A stretch of DNA of 64,000 nucleotides from Comamonadaceae bacterium (GCA_027486555.1 JAIXOX010000013.1:44330-108329); one strand, 5' to 3'; shown: positions 1 to 7,400, counted from the first letter of the stretch. Program-made: numbers and translations. The notes: generated by a model from the letters alone, not told the origin.

Positions 1-102
1 AGAAACGGCGGCCTGACTGACGCTGCGGCATTCCGCCACCTTCAGAAAGGCGGCCAGCATGTCGGTGGAGATGGGGCGTAACTGCCGTTCGGATGTGCTC
101 AT
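1..102 (-). CDS. LysR-family transcriptional regulator, N-terminal fragment
   Basis: Only the first 34 codons lie in the window; the gene continues past base 1. The minus-strand reading starts MSTSERQLRPISTDMLAAFL and continues into KVAECRSVSQAAVS, which is the typical start of a LysR winged helix-turn-helix (a helix of the form LxxFxxVAExxSxxxAA). The gene is divergent from the GST/RuBisCO-like operon, the classic arrangement for a LysR protein that controls its neighbour. Too short for the ORF track. The family is fairly certain from the helix pattern; the effector is unknown. Confidence 0.75.
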   Translation of the reverse strand, partial: MSTSERQLRPISTDMLAAFLKVAECRSVSQAAVS

Positions 103-191
103 TGTTCGTGATTCATAAACAATCGATTTGCATTACAGCAGTTGTTTTGACGCGGGTCAATTTTTAAACTGGCATCGCGATTGTTCATGAA
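101..191. promoter_or_regulatory. Candidate LysR operator in the divergent intergenic region
   Basis: Bases 101-123 read ATTGTT-N11-AACAAT, an interrupted inverted repeat of the T-N11-A type used by LysR proteins; it overlaps the lysR start codon. A second related element, CGATTGTTCATGAA at 178-191, is the reverse complement of TTCATAAACAATCG at 112-125 with one mismatch. Two copies at the two ends of the spacer suggest a recognition site and an activation site. No start site or binding data are available. Confidence 0.4.
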
Positions 192-214
192 ACCATACAA
201 ACCACGGAGACAAC

Positions 215-859
215 ATGAAAATTCACGCAGACCCGATCACCGTCAATTGCAAAAAAGTGCTGGCAGGATTGCAGCTGATGGGTGCCCCCTACGAGTTGGT
301 GCACGTTGACTACTTCAAGGGGGAGCAAAAACTGGAACCCTTTGTCAGTCTGAACCCCAACGCGTCTTTGCCAGCCATGGTCGACGGCGATTTGGAGCTC
401 TGGGAGTCCAACGCCATCTTGCAGTACGCGGCAGACAAAACAGGCCACGCATCATCGTACCCCCAGGATTTGAAAACCCGTGCCGACATCAACCGCTGGT
501 TGCTGTGGGAGTCTTCCAGCTGGTTTCCAAGCTGTTATGTCTTCCTGGTGGAAAACTGCGTCAAGCCACTGCTGGGCGGCGCGCCTGACCCGGAAGTTCT
601 GGCGGCGCAGGAGGCTCAGTTTCACAAGCTGGCGGGTATTTTGGACCAACGCCTGGCATCCAGCCGCTGGGTGTGTGGTGACCAAGTCACCATTGCAGAC
701 ATCGCCTTGGCTGCCCCCTTGCATTTGCACGGTTGGCAAAAGTTGCCTTTGGGCCCCCACAAAAACCTGTCACGCTGGCTGCTGCAAGACATCGAGGCCT
801 TGCCTTGCTGGCAGAACACCATGGTGTACGAAGGCTTCACCACCCAAAAAACGAATTGA
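215..859 (+). CDS. Glutathione S-transferase family protein
   Basis: A 214-residue protein with the two-domain GST layout. The N-terminal thioredoxin-like part carries the signature around NPNASLPAMVDGDLELWES, where the cis-Pro and the following acidic/Ser pair would bind glutathione. The C-terminal helical part holds the GDQVTIADIAL motif (helix-6 N-capping box). The start follows GGAGACAAC with good spacing. It is the first gene of the plus-strand operon divergent from LysR. GSTs in catabolic operons often open epoxides, isomerise or dehalogenate substrates; which applies here cannot be told. The family call is secure. Confidence 0.88.
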   Translation: MKIHADPITVNCKKVLAGLQLMGAPYELVHVDYFKGEQKLEPFVSLNPNASLPAMVDGDLELWESNAILQYAADKTGHASSYPQDLKTRADINRWLLWESSSWFPSCYVFLVENCVKPLLGGAPDPEVLAAQEAQFHKLAGILDQRLASSRWVCGDQVTIADIALAAPLHLHGWQKLPLGPHKNLSRWLLQDIEALPCWQNTMVYEGFTTQKTN

Positions 860-867
860 CATCACCC

Positions 868-1686
868 ATGACCGATTTGCACGCCGTCCGCGCGACTCTG
901 AATTACTCCGAGGACAACGGCCAACCGCCGGATTATTATTTTTACGAACCCGACCCGAGCGTGAAGATCAATCCGCCGGGGACGGACGTGCATGAGGTGG
1001 CCATTCACGATGCTTGGCCTTTGCGACATGACATCCGTCTGGACAAGGAGGGCTTTGAGTTGCATGACTTTGACCCCTCCTTCAAGGACTTTGCCGACGA
1101 AGCGAAGGTCAAGCAGCTGTTCTATCAGCAGGTGGTGGATTTTGTGAAGGCCCACACCGGGGCCAAGCGGGTGGAGGTTTTTGACCACACCATCCGGCAG
1201 CGCTTGCCCGCCGATCTGAAGCAGCAAACCGAGATCCAAAGGCCCGCTGTCTTGTTGGTTCACAGCGATTACACGGTCAAGAGTGGGCCGCAAAGGGTCC
1301 ACGACATACTGCCCGATGACGCCCCGCAGCTGCTGCAAGGCCGGGTGGCTTTTTACAACGTGTGGAAGCCGCTGTACCAACGGGTTGAAGAGTTGCCCTT
1401 GGCCATGTGTGATGCCTCGACACACGACGAGGGCGACATGCTGCGCATGGAGCTCAAGTACCTGGACAGAACGGGTGAAATTTACGTGATGCGGCATTCT
1501 CCCAAACACCGCTGGATGTTTTTTCCATTCATGGAGGCCCACCACGCCTTGTTGCTCAAAACCTATGACTCGGCCACCGATGGTCGCTGCCGGTTCATGG
1601 GGCATTCGGCTTTTGAGCACCCCGATACCGCGCCTGACGCCCTCAAACGCGAAAGCATCGAAGTGCGCACGATGGCGTTTTTCTGA
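868..1686 (+). CDS. CmcJ/NvfI-family oxidoreductase
   Basis: A 272-residue protein. The start at 868 (MTDLHAVRATLNYSEDNG) is chosen over the ORF-track start because it lies 8 bases after the GST stop and the family begins with this kind of 'RATLNY' strand. Recognisable blocks are FDHTIRQR, VHSDYT, FYNVWKPL, RWMFFPFMEAHHALLLKTYD and GHSAFEHPDT. This order is shared with the family of CmcJ (cephamycin methoxylation) and NvfI/AsaB-like fungal enzymes. HSD plus the later GHSAF histidine could form an Fe(II) site as in 2-oxoglutarate oxygenases, but that is inference. The substrate is unknown; co-transcription with GST and the RuBisCO-like protein suggests a role in the same pathway. Confidence 0.72.
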   Translation: MTDLHAVRATLNYSEDNGQPPDYYFYEPDPSVKINPPGTDVHEVAIHDAWPLRHDIRLDKEGFELHDFDPSFKDFADEAKVKQLFYQQVVDFVKAHTGAKRVEVFDHTIRQRLPADLKQQTEIQRPAVLLVHSDYTVKSGPQRVHDILPDDAPQLLQGRVAFYNVWKPLYQRVEELPLAMCDASTHDEGDMLRMELKYLDRTGEIYVMRHSPKHRWMFFPFMEAHHALLLKTYDSATDGRCRFMGHSAFEHPDTAPDALKRESIEVRTMAFF

Positions 1687-1758
1687 ACGGTTTTGCCTTG
1701 TGGCGGGCAAGCAAGCGCCCTACGATGCTGGCTTCTTCCTTTTTAGCAGACTTGACCC

Positions 1759-3027
1759 ATGAGCCAGCCTGGTGCGCGTTCCGAATTCACAGCCCGGTAT
1801 TTCGTTGAAAGCACGGTGCCCTCCGACAAAGTGGCCGAAATCATTGCCGGAGAGCAGTCCAGTGGCACCTTTGTCACCTTGCCGGGCGAAACCGCGCAAT
1901 TGAAAGAGCGCTCGCGTGCCCGGGTCACCCGTGTGCTGCCGATGTCGGCCAGCGCGCAGCCCACGCTGCACAGTGCTGTGCTGCAGCGCCAGGGGCTGAA
2001 CAGGCCTTTTGAGCGGGCCGAAATCGAGATTGCGTTTCCGGTGGACAACGTGGGGGCCAATTTGCCTTCGCTCTTGGCCACGGTGGCGGGCAATTTGTTT
2101 GAGCTCGGTGAGGTCACGGCTTTGCGCTTGCTCGATCTGGATTTGTCGCCTGCTTATGCCGCAGAGTTTCAGGGGCCTGCGTTTGGCATCGAGGGCACGC
2201 GCCAGTTGGCGGGTGTGCACGGGCGACCCTTGGTGGGCACGATCGTCAAACCCAGCATTGGCTTGAGTGCCGAGCAAACGGCGCAGTTGGTGGATTCGCT
2301 GTGCGCTGCGGGGATTGATTTCATCAAGGACGATGAATTGATGGCCAATGCGCCTTACGAGCCGTTTGCTGCGCGGCTGGCGGCGGTGATGCCGGTGCTG
2401 CACCGCCATGCCGATCGTTTGGGGCGCATGCCGATGTATGCCTTCAATGTGTCAGGCTCGATCGATGACATGCTCCGCCAAAGCGATGCTGTGGCGGTTG
2501 CCGGCGGCACCTGTGTCATGGTCAGCGTCAATTGGGTGGGTTTTGCCGGGGTGGAGCATTTGCGCAAGAACACCGCTTTGCCCATTCATGGCCACCGCAA
2601 TGGTTGGGGCGCCTTGACGCGCCACCCCGGCTTGGGGTTTTCTTTTGCGGCCTACCAAAAGTTGTGGCGGCTGGCGGGGGTGGACCATTTGCATGTGAAT
2701 GGCCCCAGCAGCAAATTTTGGGAGCCCGATGCGTCGGTGTTTGCCAATGCGCAGGACTGCTTGCGTCCGTTTGCAGGCTTGCTGCCTTTGATGCCTGTTT
2801 TTTCTTCTGGTCAGTGGGCCGGGTTGGCCCCGGAAATTTACCGACAGCTGGCCTCTTGCGACCTGATGCATTTGGCTGGTGGGGGCATCATTGGCCACCC
2901 CGATGGCACCGCCGCCGGTGTGCAAAGCATGCGCCAGGCTTGGGAGGCGGCCGTTGCGGGTGTGGACCTGCAGCAGGCCGCCGTCAGTCACAGCGCTTTG
3001 GCCCGGGCTTTGTCGCATTTTGGGTGA
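1759..3027 (+). CDS. RuBisCO-like protein (form IV type), possible OiaX-like decarboxylase
   Basis: A 422-residue homologue of the RuBisCO large subunit. By spinach numbering the sequence keeps K175 (K164 in GTIVKPSIGLS), the metal-site K201/D203/E204 (FIKDDE, 190-193), H294-R295 (H279-R280), H327 (H312), K334 (K319) and S379 (S349). It has Ser in place of K177 and FWEPD in place of the loop-6 LEGE region. It is therefore unlikely to fix CO2 but could still perform metal-dependent enolisation or decarboxylation. The next gene, 8 bases downstream, is a DUF1537 kinase. That pair matches the established 3-oxo-isoapionate kinase (OiaK)/3-oxo-isoapionate-4-phosphate decarboxylase (OiaX) pair. The exact substrate is inferred, not shown. 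Confidence 0.88.
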   Translation: MSQPGARSEFTARYFVESTVPSDKVAEIIAGEQSSGTFVTLPGETAQLKERSRARVTRVLPMSASAQPTLHSAVLQRQGLNRPFERAEIEIAFPVDNVGANLPSLLATVAGNLFELGEVTALRLLDLDLSPAYAAEFQGPAFGIEGTRQLAGVHGRPLVGTIVKPSIGLSAEQTAQLVDSLCAAGIDFIKDDELMANAPYEPFAARLAAVMPVLHRHADRLGRMPMYAFNVSGSIDDMLRQSDAVAVAGGTCVMVSVNWVGFAGVEHLRKNTALPIHGHRNGWGALTRHPGLGFSFAAYQKLWRLAGVDHLHVNGPSSKFWEPDASVFANAQDCLRPFAGLLPLMPVFSSGQWAGLAPEIYRQLASCDLMHLAGGGIIGHPDGTAAGVQSMRQAWEAAVAGVDLQQAAVSHSALARALSHFG

Positions 3028-3035
3028 GCTGACGC

Positions 3036-4448
3036 ATGACTGAACCCACACCCACACCAGCCAACGCCATGCGGCTGGCTTTTTATGGCGACGATTTCAC
3101 AGGCTCGACCGATGCGCTGGAGGTACTGAGCTTTGCGGGGCTTCGTTGCGCCTTGTTTTTGCAGGTGCCCAGTGCGGCCTTGCTCGAGGCCTTGGGGCCG
3201 TTTGACGCCGTGGGCGTTGCCGGTCACAGCCGCGCCATGAGCCCGGAAGAAATGGACGAGCAGTTGCCGCCTGTTTTGGCCGCTTTGGCCCGGTTGCCGG
3301 TGCCCTTGGTGCATTACAAGGTGTGCTCGACTTTTGACAGCCATCCCGATGTGGGCAGCATCGGGCATGTGATGGATTTGGCGCGCCAGGCCTTTGGTCC
3401 CGGGGTGATTCCGGTGGTGGCGGCCAACCCGGCCTTGGCCCGTTATTGCGTTTTTGGGCACTTGTTTGCGCGTTCGGCAACAGATGGCCAGGTGCATCGA
3501 ATTGACCGCCATCCCATCATGCGTGTGCATCCTGTGACGCCCATGACCGAGTCTGACCTGGCCAAGCATCTGTCCATGCAAACGCGCCAAACGGTGGCGG
3601 GTGTCACGCTGCCCGTTTTTGAGCGGTCTGAGGCGCAACAAGATGCCGAGGTGGACGCCTTGCTGGCGTCGTCCTGCGAGGCTTTGCTGTTCGATGGCAC
3701 CCGGCCGGAACACCTGACGGCCACCGGGCGGCATTTGTCGCGTTTGTCGGCTTTGAGCCCGGGGCCGATGTTTGCAGTGGGCTCCTCGGGCCTGGAGTAC
3801 GCCCTGACGCAATGGTGGCGTCAAGGTTCCCATACGCCATGGCCTGCGCAGGCCGCGTCTTTTGAAGGGTTTGCGGACGTTCCTCAGGTGTTGGTGGTGT
3901 CGGCCAGTGCTTCGGCCTTGAGCGCGCAGCAGGTCGATGTGGCCGTGCAGGCGGGCTTTGCCGAGGTGGCTTTGGATGTGTGTGCATGGCTCACGCAGCG
4001 CGAGCTGGCCTTGGCGGACATGGCCCAAGTGATCGTGTCGGCTTGGCACAGCGGGCGCAGCGTGGTGGTGCACACGGCGCGCGGCACGGGGGATGCGCGC
4101 TTCGCTCAATTGCGCGAGCGTTTGATGGCCTCGGGGCTGTCTCAGGCGCAGGCTGCGCTGCAAGGCGGGCGTTTGGTGGGCGAGTGCTTGGGTGAGTTGA
4201 CCGAGCGGGTGTTGCAAACCGTGGAGGTGCGACGTTTGCTGCTGTCGGGTGGCGACACATCGAGCGCCATCATGCAGCGGCTGGGCCCGCAGGCTTTGCA
4301 GGTGCTGGCACGCTTGGCGCCGGGTGCGCCTTTGTGCAAGCTCTTGTCCGACAAGCCCCATTTGCGCCAGCTCGAGGTCGCCTTGAAAGGCGGTCAAATG
4401 GGGTCGGCTGATTTTTTTGTCCAGGCTTTAAGGGGGCGCGAGGTTTGA
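3036..4448 (+). CDS. Four-carbon acid sugar kinase family protein (DUF1537), OiaK-like
   Basis: A 470-residue protein with the family hallmarks: the N-terminal substrate-domain motif YGDDFTGSTDA (about residues 17-27), and near the C-terminus the nucleotide-domain motifs LLLSGGDTSSAI and LKGGQMGSADFF. Members phosphorylate 3-oxo or hydroxy sugar acids (DtnK, LtnK, OtnK, OiaK). Its 8-base spacing after the RuBisCO-like gene argues that its phosphorylated product is the substrate of that protein, as in isoapionate catabolism. Full length for the family. A later in-frame Met (MRLAFYGDD) is possible, but the first ATG gives conventional operon spacing. Family certain; substrate inferred. Confidence 0.88.
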   Translation: MTEPTPTPANAMRLAFYGDDFTGSTDALEVLSFAGLRCALFLQVPSAALLEALGPFDAVGVAGHSRAMSPEEMDEQLPPVLAALARLPVPLVHYKVCSTFDSHPDVGSIGHVMDLARQAFGPGVIPVVAANPALARYCVFGHLFARSATDGQVHRIDRHPIMRVHPVTPMTESDLAKHLSMQTRQTVAGVTLPVFERSEAQQDAEVDALLASSCEALLFDGTRPEHLTATGRHLSRLSALSPGPMFAVGSSGLEYALTQWWRQGSHTPWPAQAASFEGFADVPQVLVVSASASALSAQQVDVAVQAGFAEVALDVCAWLTQRELALADMAQVIVSAWHSGRSVVVHTARGTGDARFAQLRERLMASGLSQAQAALQGGRLVGECLGELTERVLQTVEVRRLLLSGGDTSSAIMQRLGPQALQVLARLAPGAPLCKLLSDKPHLRQLEVALKGGQMGSADFFVQALRGREV

Positions 4449-4504
4449 ACGCGGTTGCCGCGGTCGAACTGGGTGTTCTGTTGGCCAATGAATAGAGGGT
4501 GTGT

Positions 4505-5278
4505 ATGACGTTGTCAGCTTCAAATGGGCGTGTGGCCCTGGTGACCGGTGGGGCCAAAGGGATTGGCGCTGAAGTGGGTCATGCTTTGGCCGCCAAGGGG
4601 TTCAAGGTTTGGGTGGCCGACAAAGATGTACAAAGTGCACAGGCTTGGGCGGCAGCGCTGCAACAGCAAGGGGGGCAAGCCCAAGCCGTGTTGCTGGATG
4701 TGGCCGATCCGGCCTCGGTGGCGCAGGTGTTTGCGGCCGTGGAGGCGCAAGATGGGCGCTGTGATGTGCTGGTCAACAGTGCTGGCATCGCCAAGGTTTT
4801 CCCCTTCCTAGATTTCCCTTTGGACAACTTCGTAGCCACCATGGCGGTCAATGTGACGGGGACTTTGCTGTGCGCCCAACACGCCGCCCGGCTGATGTTG
4901 CCTCAGCGTTGGGGTCGCATTGTGAACATCGCTTCGGTGGCGGGTTTGCGGGCGGTGGGCAAGGGGCGAACGGCCTATGGCACCTCCAAAGGGGCGGTGG
5001 TGGCCTTGACCCGGCAAATGGCGGTGGAGTTGGCCGAGCATGGCATCACGGCCAATGCGGTGTGCCCCGGACCGGTGGACACGCCCATGACGCGCGAGTT
5101 GCACTCCGAGCAGTTTCGCGTCGAATACGCCAAGGCCATTCCCATGGCGCGGTATGGCCTGACCAGCGAGATTGCGGCGGCGGTGATGTACCTGGTGTCT
5201 GATGAAGCCAGCTATACCACGGGTGTGGCTTTGCCGGTCGATGGCGGTTTCATGTCGGCCGGTGCGCCAGGCTTGTGA
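4505..5278 (+). CDS. SDR-family NAD(P)-dependent oxidoreductase
   Basis: A 257-residue classical short-chain dehydrogenase. Visible are the cofactor motif TGGAKGIG (14-21), an acidic residue after strand 2 (VADKD, suggesting NAD rather than NADP), NSAG (91-94), and the catalytic S144, Y158 and K162 (YGTSK). PGPVDTPM follows. The ATG at 4505 is preferred to the GTG used by the ORF track because AGAGGG lies 5 bases upstream. It sits 56 bases after the kinase in the same operon, so it probably oxidises or reduces a hydroxyl of the same carbon skeleton. Substrate unknown. Confidence 0.9.
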   Translation: MTLSASNGRVALVTGGAKGIGAEVGHALAAKGFKVWVADKDVQSAQAWAAALQQQGGQAQAVLLDVADPASVAQVFAAVEAQDGRCDVLVNSAGIAKVFPFLDFPLDNFVATMAVNVTGTLLCAQHAARLMLPQRWGRIVNIASVAGLRAVGKGRTAYGTSKGAVVALTRQMAVELAEHGITANAVCPGPVDTPMTRELHSEQFRVEYAKAIPMARYGLTSEIAAAVMYLVSDEASYTTGVALPVDGGFMSAGAPGL

Positions 5279-5318
5279 GTGCGTGTTCATGCAAGGCCAG
5301 AGAGATAAGGAGTGACAG

Positions 5319-6209
5319 ATGCCGCCTGATATGAAGTTTGTGGATACCGATGTGTTGCGCATCGGCTACCAAGAGTGGAACCCGAGCGCCCAGCGCTCGG
5401 TGATTTTGTTGCACGGTTGGCCCGACAGTGTGCGCACTTGGTCGGGGGTGACGCCTTTGCTGGCAGAACAAGGCTGGCGTGTGGTGGTGCCAGCCTTGCG
5501 TGGGTTTTCGCCCACACGGTTTTTGCACCCTGAGACGCCGCGCAGTGGGCAGATTTCTGCCTTGGGTCGCGATGTGCTCGATTTGATCGAGCGGCTGCAC
5601 TTGAATCAACCGGCTTTGGTGGGCCATGACTGGGGTGCCCGTGCGGCCGCCAGCGCTTGTGCTTTGCGGCCGGGCGTGGCCAGCCACTTGGTCATGATGT
5701 CGGTGGCCTATGGCACCAATTTGCCCTCGCAAAATCTGTCGCTGACGCAGGTGCGCAACTATTGGTACCACTGGTTCATGGCCACGCCCCGGGGGCAACG
5801 TGAGGTGCGTGAGCGGGGGACTGCCTTTGCCAAAATCATGTGGGACACCTGGTCGCCAGCCGGTTGGTATGACGATCAGGAATTCGAGGCCACGGCCGAA
5901 GTGTTTGCCAACGAAGACTGGCCAGAGGTGACGCTTCACTCTTACCAGCACCGCTGGGGGCACGCCCCGGGCGATCCGCGTTATGCCGCCGAAGAAGAAG
6001 CTTTGAGCCGTGTCTTGCCCCTGGATGTGCCCACTTTGATGTTGCATGGCGGCGTGGATGGCGTGAACCCTGCGTCAACATCCGAGGGGCAAGCACCGCT
6101 TTTTCTCAACCGGTATGAACGCAAGGTGCTGCCCGCGTGTGGGCATTTTCCGCAGCGTGAAGACCCTCTACAAGTGGCCCAAGAACTGATCCGGTTTTTG
6201 TCTGCCTGA
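5319..6209 (+). CDS. Alpha/beta hydrolase, epoxide hydrolase-like
   Basis: A 296-residue alpha/beta hydrolase with an Asp nucleophile rather than Ser: GHDWGA at 102-107 (D104). The oxyanion-hole motif HGWPDS (32-37) and a C-terminal catalytic His in CGHFPQRED complete the pattern seen in epoxide hydrolases and haloalkane dehalogenases. HGWP favours the epoxide-hydrolase branch. The start follows AAGGAGTGACAG. It is the last gene of the RuBisCO-like operon. Hydrolysis of an epoxide or lactone as an entry step is plausible but not shown. Downstream bases 6210-6325 hold nothing recognisable. Confidence 0.85.
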   Translation: MPPDMKFVDTDVLRIGYQEWNPSAQRSVILLHGWPDSVRTWSGVTPLLAEQGWRVVVPALRGFSPTRFLHPETPRSGQISALGRDVLDLIERLHLNQPALVGHDWGARAAASACALRPGVASHLVMMSVAYGTNLPSQNLSLTQVRNYWYHWFMATPRGQREVRERGTAFAKIMWDTWSPAGWYDDQEFEATAEVFANEDWPEVTLHSYQHRWGHAPGDPRYAAEEEALSRVLPLDVPTLMLHGGVDGVNPASTSEGQAPLFLNRYERKVLPACGHFPQREDPLQVAQELIRFLSA

Positions 6210-6325
6210 ACGTTTGCAAACACCAACCGCAGCCTTTCGGTGGGCATGGCGCAGCGGGGTGTTGACTGGTGCAGGATGGTTTTGGGCGCGCAGGGCGGTA
6301 CGGTCTTGGTGCGCACACTGAGAAA

Positions 6326-7165
6326 TCAGACCCGGTACAACTGGCTCATGCGGGCAATCTCGGCCTGCACCATGGTGCGCAGGGCCAAGGGTTTGACCAC
6401 TTCGACTTCACCACCAAAGCGCAAGATGTCGCCGATCAGTTCACGTTCGTCGGCGTAAGGCAGGCGCAGGGTGAAGCTGCCATCGGCGTTCAGTTGGCCT
6501 TGTTGCTGGGCATGCCAGCTTTCGTGTTTCACCCTCCCCGAGCGGGCTGCGCTGAAGCGCAATTCGGCCCAGTCTTTGGGGCTGCCGGCAAAGATGCCGT
6601 AGCCACCGTCGAGCTGGTGGCGCATGGCTTGCAGGTCGATGTTCTTGGCGTCCTTGTCCAGCACGGTGGCGTTTTCGATGGCGTCGATCGAGAAGCTGCG
6701 GACTTCTTTGCGCAGGTGGCACCAGGCGTCGGCATACCAGTTGTCGCGGTAGTGGATGAGTTGTTGTGGCGAGATGTCGCGCTCGATGGTTTGGCCGCTC
6801 AGCCGGTTGTGGTGCTGGATGCGCACTTGTTTGCGCTCGAAGGTGGCTTTGGCCACATGCTCAAAAGCCGTCAGCGGCAGGTGGCGTTTGCCAGCGTGTA
6901 CGGCTCGCACACGTTGGGTCAGCAGTTGCGGGTCCAGGCCTTGGTGGCTGAGCATGTCATCGAGCCGCTTGCGCAAGGGCTGAAGCTTGGGGCCAAGCAG
7001 GCCGGGGTTGAGCTGCTCGATCATGGTCTGGATGGTCATGAGCGCGAGGATTTCGTCCTGGCTGAACCAAAAACCGGGAAGTTCGGTGGCGTTGTCGGGT
7101 TTTTCAAGCCGGTAGCCGCTCAATTCGCGGTCAAACACAATGGGGGAGTTGAGCCGGTCACGCAT
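6326..7165 (-). CDS. WYL-domain regulator lacking its N-terminal HTH (5'-truncated)
   Basis: A 279-residue WYL-domain protein: the central segment with HYRDNWYADAWCHLR and RSFSIDAIENATVLD is the WYL fold, followed by a WCX-like C-terminus. Full-length relatives are about 310-340 residues and start with a DeoR-type HTH whose recognition-helix tail reads like RDIxYMRDRLNAPIVYD. This ORF starts exactly at MRDRLNSPIVFD, so the DNA-binding helices are missing. The bases directly upstream are REP-like repeat DNA with an in-frame TAG. It is probably a decayed regulator, or a ligand-binding remnant. No HTH coding was found on the far side of the repeats. Confidence 0.75.
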   Translation of the reverse strand: MRDRLNSPIVFDRELSGYRLEKPDNATELPGFWFSQDEILALMTIQTMIEQLNPGLLGPKLQPLRKRLDDMLSHQGLDPQLLTQRVRAVHAGKRHLPLTAFEHVAKATFERKQVRIQHHNRLSGQTIERDISPQQLIHYRDNWYADAWCHLRKEVRSFSIDAIENATVLDKDAKNIDLQAMRHQLDGGYGIFAGSPKDWAELRFSAARSGRVKHESWHAQQQGQLNADGSFTLRLPYADERELIGDILRFGGEVEVVKPLALRTMVQAEIARMSQLYRV

Positions 7166-7174
7166 GTCGTCCGT

Positions 7175-7400
7175 GTGGGAGCCCCGCCCCCGGGGCGATG
7201 CCTGCCTTATCTAGGAGCCCCGCCCTCGGGGCGATGGGTGGTGGTCTGCGAGGCATATCGCGACGAGGGCGTCGCTCCTACAGGGGAAGTGCCGGCCTTT
7301 GTGGCCATGCAGGGGAATGCCTGCCATTTGTAGGAGCCCCGCCCCCGGGGCGATGGGTCGTGGTCTGCGCGCCATATCGCTGCGGCGCGCATCCCAACAA
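7175..7400. repeat. REP/BIME-like repeat cluster, copies 1-3
   Basis: Three units of a GC-rich palindromic repeat. A half unit occupies 7175-7200, a full unit 7211-7286 and a diverged full unit 7330-7397. A full unit consists of an arm of the type TAGGAGC-CCCGCCCTCGGGG-CGAT, a spacer with TGGTCTGCG, then an inverted arm ATCG-CGACGAGGGCGTCG-CTCCTA. Each arm folds on its own, and the two arms also pair with each other. The same family recurs at 58.43-58.60 kb. The arrangement matches REP sequences organised as BIMEs. No RAYT transposase is in the window. Confidence 0.82.

Follow-up and report, generated by a model that had tools for sequence, protein, structure and literature searches.

What does a six-gene operon degrade when it pairs a RuBisCO-like protein (RLP) with a DUF1537 acid-sugar kinase, and by which route? 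The operon in question lies in a 64,000-nucleotide stretch from a Comamonadaceae bacterium (GCA_027486555.1, JAIXOX010000013.1:44330–108329; further referred to as the window), which is bases 44330–108329 of contig C37 in a 3.83-Mb genome that is 92% complete. The closest named relatives of this genome are metagenome-assembled genomes of Limnohabitans sp. Rim8. The first-pass annotation of the window had proposed an undescribed pathway with a new entry route, ending in decarboxylation by the RLP. Our analysis suggests that the operon and its divergent LysR gene are a mobile composite cassette, whose downstream unit would process an isoapionate-type acid via a dehydrogenase, an OiaK-like kinase and an RLP resembling XacX of Xanthobacter, while the upstream unit would feed it a precursor. 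We put the probability of this reading at roughly 0.58.

Gene content and boundaries of the cassette

All six open reading frames are complete, lie on the plus strand at window positions 215–6209 and are separated by successive gaps of 2, 72, 8, 50 and 40 bp; they and their family assignments are those first reported. They encode a glutathione S-transferase (GST; 215–859, GST_N and GST_C domains), an Fe(II)/2-oxoglutarate-dependent oxygenase of the CmcJ/NvfI family (862–1686), the RLP (1759–3027; RuBisCO_large, 236 bits), the kinase (3036–4448; SBD_N and NBD_C, 176 and 107 bits, both exceeding the Pfam gathering scores), a short-chain dehydrogenase/reductase identified by its family match (SDR; 4499–5278) and an epoxide-hydrolase-like alpha/beta hydrolase (5319–6209; Abhydrolase_1). 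The divergent LysR-type regulator is also present as claimed. It starts at window position 102 on the minus strand and runs beyond the window edge, with its 5' part (window 1–102) inside; the full gene is L002 9154–10101 (window −845 to 102). The 112-bp region between LysR and GST (window 103–214) is the probable operator and promoter and contains TTGAC-N4-GTCAA as well as a block CATT..AGCAG.TG. Generic promoter and terminator scans of the locus yielded nothing above the chance level of shuffled sequences.

Comparison by blastn with four relatives (L029, L031, L033 and L155) gave a single homologous block, L002 9130–16211 (window about −869 to 6212; ~7.08 kb), with 89–94% identity. This block has the end of LysR at one edge and the hydrolase stop codon at the other, and the flanking DNA is unrelated on both sides. 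Since only the LysR-to-hydrolase block is shared, the seven genes are one transferable cassette located at differing chromosomal sites. Gene order and content are kept in five Limnohabitans-type assemblies and in two contig-end fragments, and omega values of 0.04–0.18 across all seven genes indicate purifying selection; the six genes of the operon are therefore co-conserved in relatives. Among the source genome and 35 other genomes of the genus, the cassette is found in four (G000, the source, G007, G023 and G029). Three others (G004, G014 and G035) contain a different, ApnO-linked RLP.

The cassette is a fusion of two older units

In a genome from another genus of the same family (G078), the LysR-GST-CmcJ unit stands alone. 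The DNA that it shares with the cassette (L002 9221–11686, 70% nucleotide identity) ends at the stop codon of the CmcJ-type gene; the CmcJ-type proteins are 80% and the GSTs 74% identical, and the LysR orthologue scores 387 bits. Alignment of the LysR–GST intergenic regions revealed conserved blocks, including the CATT..AGCAG.TG operator block. The best match of this genome to the OiaX model is 121 bits, at the level of the RuBisCO superfamily, and no RLP of the cassette type was found there. Pairs of GST and CmcJ genes without RLP also occur in other families of Burkholderiales, where the units differ from the cassette in lacking the RLP and the kinase, and some have another SDR.

The second unit is widespread in Burkholderiales (Cupriavidus, Variovorax, Delftia, Paraburkholderia, Caballeronia) as LysR/RLP-kinase-TRAP-SDR loci, in some cases with pyruvate kinase and enolase genes. 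Their RLPs are 65–75% identical to that of the cassette and their kinases and SDRs are orthologous, whereas the LysR is unrelated (30–45 bits vs the cassette LysR), GST and CmcJ are absent, and a TRAP transporter is present in 27 of the 34 loci of the RLP clade described below. The cassette-type hydrolase is found only in two of these loci: in L041 (73% identical) it comes after RLP-kinase-SDR as in the cassette, and in L047 (64%) it lies nearby. Because each unit occurs separately elsewhere, the cassette is a fusion of a LysR-GST-CmcJ unit with an RLP-kinase-SDR-hydrolase unit under the regulator of the former. Hence only the addition of GST and oxygenase is special: the set looked unusual at first pass, but Burkholderiales commonly carry its RLP-DUF1537-SDR core, in most cases together with a TRAP transporter, and a single pathway arisen de novo gives way to two pre-existing units.

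The RuBisCO-like protein resembles those of apiose pathways

In a tree of 96 RLPs, built by a quick method with SH-aLRT support only, the cassette RLP nests in a 34-sequence Burkholderiales-type clade inside a broad group carrying ApnO, ApnL and ApsD. Five OiaX sequences are separated from it by a branch of 1.29 with support 100, which places the RLP outside the OiaX clade. The basal members of the Burkholderiales clade (L050, L054, L060 and L063) form RLP-kinase-ApnO loci that lack the orthologous SDR, and TRAP genes are present in two of them. Apiose loci hold RLPs of the wider clade, as in the Microvirga anchor locus, whose ApnL scores 899 against a curated cut-off of 750. The closest solved structure, PDB 3nwr (445 bits), named only as a RuBisCO-like protein and thus giving no function, represents a sister lineage outside the Burkholderiales SDR/ApnO clade. 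In L152 (G114:C1:68000–86000), from a Rhizobiaceae genome that also encodes a true OiaX, a second and divergent RLP gene directly adjoins one ApnO-like gene, with another such gene about 6 kb off; the stretch examined contained no kinase match.

The RLP keeps K190-D-D-E, K164, H279-R280, H312, K319, S350, N112, T37 and E32. At the catalytic positions, in RuBisCO numbering, E60, T65, N123, K175, K201-D203-E204, H294, R295, H327, K334, S379 and G403-G404 are all kept. The residues for carboxyl transfer and hydrolysis (the lysine carbamate, N123, K175, H294, H327 and K334) are among them, and the catalytic residues are the same as in apiose-linked RLPs. The position of K177 is occupied by S166, while the equivalent of K175 (K164) is present; as the two lysines are not both there, a genuine RuBisCO was rejected.

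XacX, the RLP of the Xanthobacter type, reportedly converts 3-oxo-isoapionate-4-phosphate to 3-phosphoglycerate and glycolate by transcarboxylation/hydrolysis. Two RLP activities on this substrate, decarboxylation in Agrobacterium and transcarboxylation/hydrolysis in Xanthobacter, are ascribed to Carter et al. (2018) in PMC6302742. The Xanthobacter D-apiose/D-apionate pathway combines an RLP with an OiaK-like DUF1537 kinase, like the cassette, and the residues and clade of the cassette RLP match the ApnO-linked RLPs of apiose pathways. The cassette differs in having no adjoining ApsD, ApnL or ApnO, an SDR instead, and an added hydrolase, GST and oxygenase. Pyruvate kinase and/or enolase genes are found within about 10 kb of the RLP in 9 of the 34 clade loci (e.g. 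Cupriavidus L140 and L168, Bradyrhizobium L142), where we estimate the chance expectation at well under 1% per locus. Since residues, clade and these neighbours fit, the best reading of the RLP is a putative XacX-like 3-oxo-isoapionate-4-phosphate transcarboxylase/hydrolase yielding 3-phosphoglycerate and glycolate, and the decarboxylation assumed earlier is probably not its reaction. A metabolic role has been proven for few RLPs. Members of this clade retain almost the entire active site of RuBisCO and apparently use its carboxyl-transfer and hydrolysis half-reactions for catabolism.

The kinase scores 393 bits against the OiaK model (NF042436, cut-off 700), 181 against OtnK (3-oxo-tetronate kinase) and 98 against threonate kinase. 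The genome encodes one other DUF1537 kinase (L161 8794–10923, contig C19), an OtnK homologue adjoining an OtnC-like gene; it looks like an ordinary 3-oxo-tetronate kinase of its own pathway, unconnected with the RLP.

A dehydrogenase proposed to replace ApnO

The SDR is 60–71% identical to SDRs next to RLP-kinase pairs in other Burkholderiales and in Pseudomonas. Of the 34 clade loci, 17 carry the orthologous SDR, 5 carry ApnO and none carries both, an exclusion whose weight is limited by the phylogenetic non-independence of the loci; a more distant SDR is present in 8 further loci and a zinc-type alcohol dehydrogenase in 3. Because the two never co-occur, the SDR would stand in for ApnO. On the simplest reading, a dehydrogenase replaces the oxidoisomerase and would make the 3-oxo acid from an already rearranged, isoapionate-type acid. 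The swap points to a concrete, testable class of substrates.

It had been stated that none of the usual apiose or apionate genes are seen. For ApnO this extends to the whole genome, at its 92% completeness: the search that detects ApnO in three members of the genus found none here. For the other two genes the statement needs qualification, as the genome contains distant Gfo/Idh homologues of ApsD (best 71 bits) and a partial 110-bit ApnL match, a distant apionate-lactonase relative in a 651-aa frame on contig C126 (104326–105852; L215). At this completeness, the absence of ApnO and the remoteness of the ApsD homologues led us to reject an apiose pathway hidden at another locus.

Enzymes of the putative entry route

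The N-terminal T-x-N motif of the GST (T9, N11) is conserved in four CmcJ-linked orthologues, and the protein is 60–74% identical to CmcJ-paired GSTs of other genera. The CmcJ-type protein scores 274.7 bits against the CmcJ_NvfI_EfuI model (NF041278, cut-off 80) and matches the NvfI structures 7emz/7de2 with E=3e-21 and 30% identity. Aligned with NvfI, it conserves the HSD...H iron-ligand motif, the triad being described in PMC8292354. Known NvfI/CmcJ oxygenases act in natural-product biosynthesis, whereas the cassette places one in a catabolic operon of freshwater bacteria. The neighbours of GST/CmcJ pairs in other genera (FAD oxidase, MR/MLE enzyme, shikimate-DH-like protein, ABC and MFS transporters) have no shared theme that would indicate the substrate, and plasmid-borne CmcJ homologues were uninformative in this respect. 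On Variovorax PBL-E5 plasmid 3 (L199), a CmcJ-type oxygenase gene adjoins those for an aminotransferase, a rhodanese-like protein, a serine acetyltransferase and an encapsulin/cysteine-desulfurase compartment; a sulfur-related role of that family member is possible.

The hydrolase carries HGWP, an Asp nucleophile in GHDWGA, lid tyrosines in YWYH and SYQHRW, and the histidine of GHFPQRE, all conserved in orthologues. This set (HGxP, Asp, His and two lid Tyr) is that of alpha/beta epoxide hydrolases, although a dehalogenase is also possible, and among solved structures the best match is 5bov (193 bits), a putative epoxide hydrolase. Opening of a 2,3-epoxide by this enzyme would give a 2,3-diol acid for the SDR, the kinase and the RLP. 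An entry via an epoxide, a lactone or the GST, as first suggested, may be envisaged, the hydrolase having residues of the epoxide-hydrolase type. The first-pass interpretation is supported in that the RLP lies outside the OiaX clade, the genome lacks ApnO, the six genes are co-conserved and an entry differing from the known one is likely.

Proposed pathway and its alternatives

In the proposed scheme, where each substrate and product is a prediction, LysR, GST and the oxygenase would sense a precursor compound and start its breakdown, the upstream unit having brought the RLP unit under its own regulator. The hydrolase would open an epoxide (or, with lower probability, a lactone or ester) to a diol acid, and the downstream unit would handle the resulting isoapionate-type branched sugar acid: the SDR may oxidise the C3 hydroxyl to the 3-oxo acid, the task of ApnO in apiose pathways, the kinase may phosphorylate C4, and the RLP, with its RuBisCO-type carbamylated-lysine/Mg2+ site, would perform the XacX-like cleavage. 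This suggests that what is new is the entry route, which feeds a largely known RLP-kinase route. We propose only tentatively that the whole constitutes an undescribed oxygen-dependent pathway, in which oxygenase, GST and epoxide-hydrolase-like enzyme convert a compound of natural or pollutant origin to an isoapionate-type acid that the RLP route takes to 3-phosphoglycerate and glycolate. Of the earlier claim of an undescribed pathway, the new entry module and the distinction of the RLP from OiaX stand; the core unit is widespread, the locus composite, and decarboxylation wrong or unproven.

Several points weigh against the proposal. In the RLP tree, XacX of Xanthobacter could not be located by name, and we know of no assayed member of the RLP clade, common as it is in Burkholderiales. 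The assignment of 3-phosphoglycerate as product draws on neighbours and residues; pyruvate kinase and enolase genes adjoin none of the Limnohabitans cassettes, and there is no transporter inside the cassette. One clade locus (L140) has ApnO plus a more distant SDR (207 bits). Finally, the GST/CmcJ and RLP units, though under one regulator, could serve different substrates.

The same RLP chemistry might act on another branched acid with no isoapionate involved, for instance a C6 acid such as 2-carboxyarabinitol, or a 2-methyl analogue. 2-Carboxyarabinitol (hamamelonate) is the precursor of a plant Rubisco inhibitor and resembles the six-carbon intermediate of RuBisCO. It is a leaf metabolite (PMC9833046), and most clade loci lack apiose genes and have transporters of the TRAP (acid) type. 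We consider this unlikely, as the proximity of the basal RLPs to ApnO links the clade with 3-oxo-isoapionate, and the cassette RLP shares its catalytic residues with apiose-linked RLPs.

Quite unlikely is the earlier reading, in which simple decarboxylation by the RLP converts the phosphorylated 3-oxo acid into a tetrulose phosphate, as in the OiaX/OiaK isoapionate route of Rhizobiaceae. That route employs the same superfamilies with the same KDDE lysine-carbamate/Mg motif, and OiaX (NF042437) and OiaK are the best NCBIfam matches of the RLP and the kinase. However, the RLP scores 457 bits against an equivalog cut-off of 700, true OiaX loci scoring 772–786, and the kinase, too, is far below its cut-off. 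All five OiaX sequences, on their long branch, have D, G and Q at positions E60, N123 and H327, where the cassette RLP keeps E, N and H; score, clade and residues together rule out OiaX identity. The pyruvate kinase and enolase neighbours fit 3-phosphoglycerate, and in the loci examined the surroundings of the RLP yielded no gene for the processing of a tetrulose phosphate.

Mere co-regulation, in which GST and CmcJ would serve to modify or detoxify some compound of no relevance to the RLP unit and the latter was inserted downstream of their promoter accidentally, would agree with each unit being found alone elsewhere but is improbable, because the seven genes stay together under purifying selection in at least five assemblies at differing chromosomal positions.

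Neighbouring genes

Just upstream of the window (L002 7337–9117), genes for an HpcH/HpaI lyase (CitE-like) and a second SDR come after LysR on its strand. The lyase is also found at the edge of L030, a contig-end fragment with the lyase side of the source genome; in other cassette carriers a class C beta-lactamase-like hydrolase lies there instead. At 6 kb upstream of LysR, a DRL/SAF-type NAD dehydrogenase gene adjoins an amidohydrolase gene (L002 125–2588), possibly a separate catabolic pair. Directly after the cassette, a WYL/WCX-domain regulator not shared with the other carriers is encoded on the minus strand (window 6326–7165), and just downstream of it (window 7174–7380) lie REP-like direct and palindromic repeats with three copies of GTAGGAGCCCCGCCCCCGGGGCGATG.

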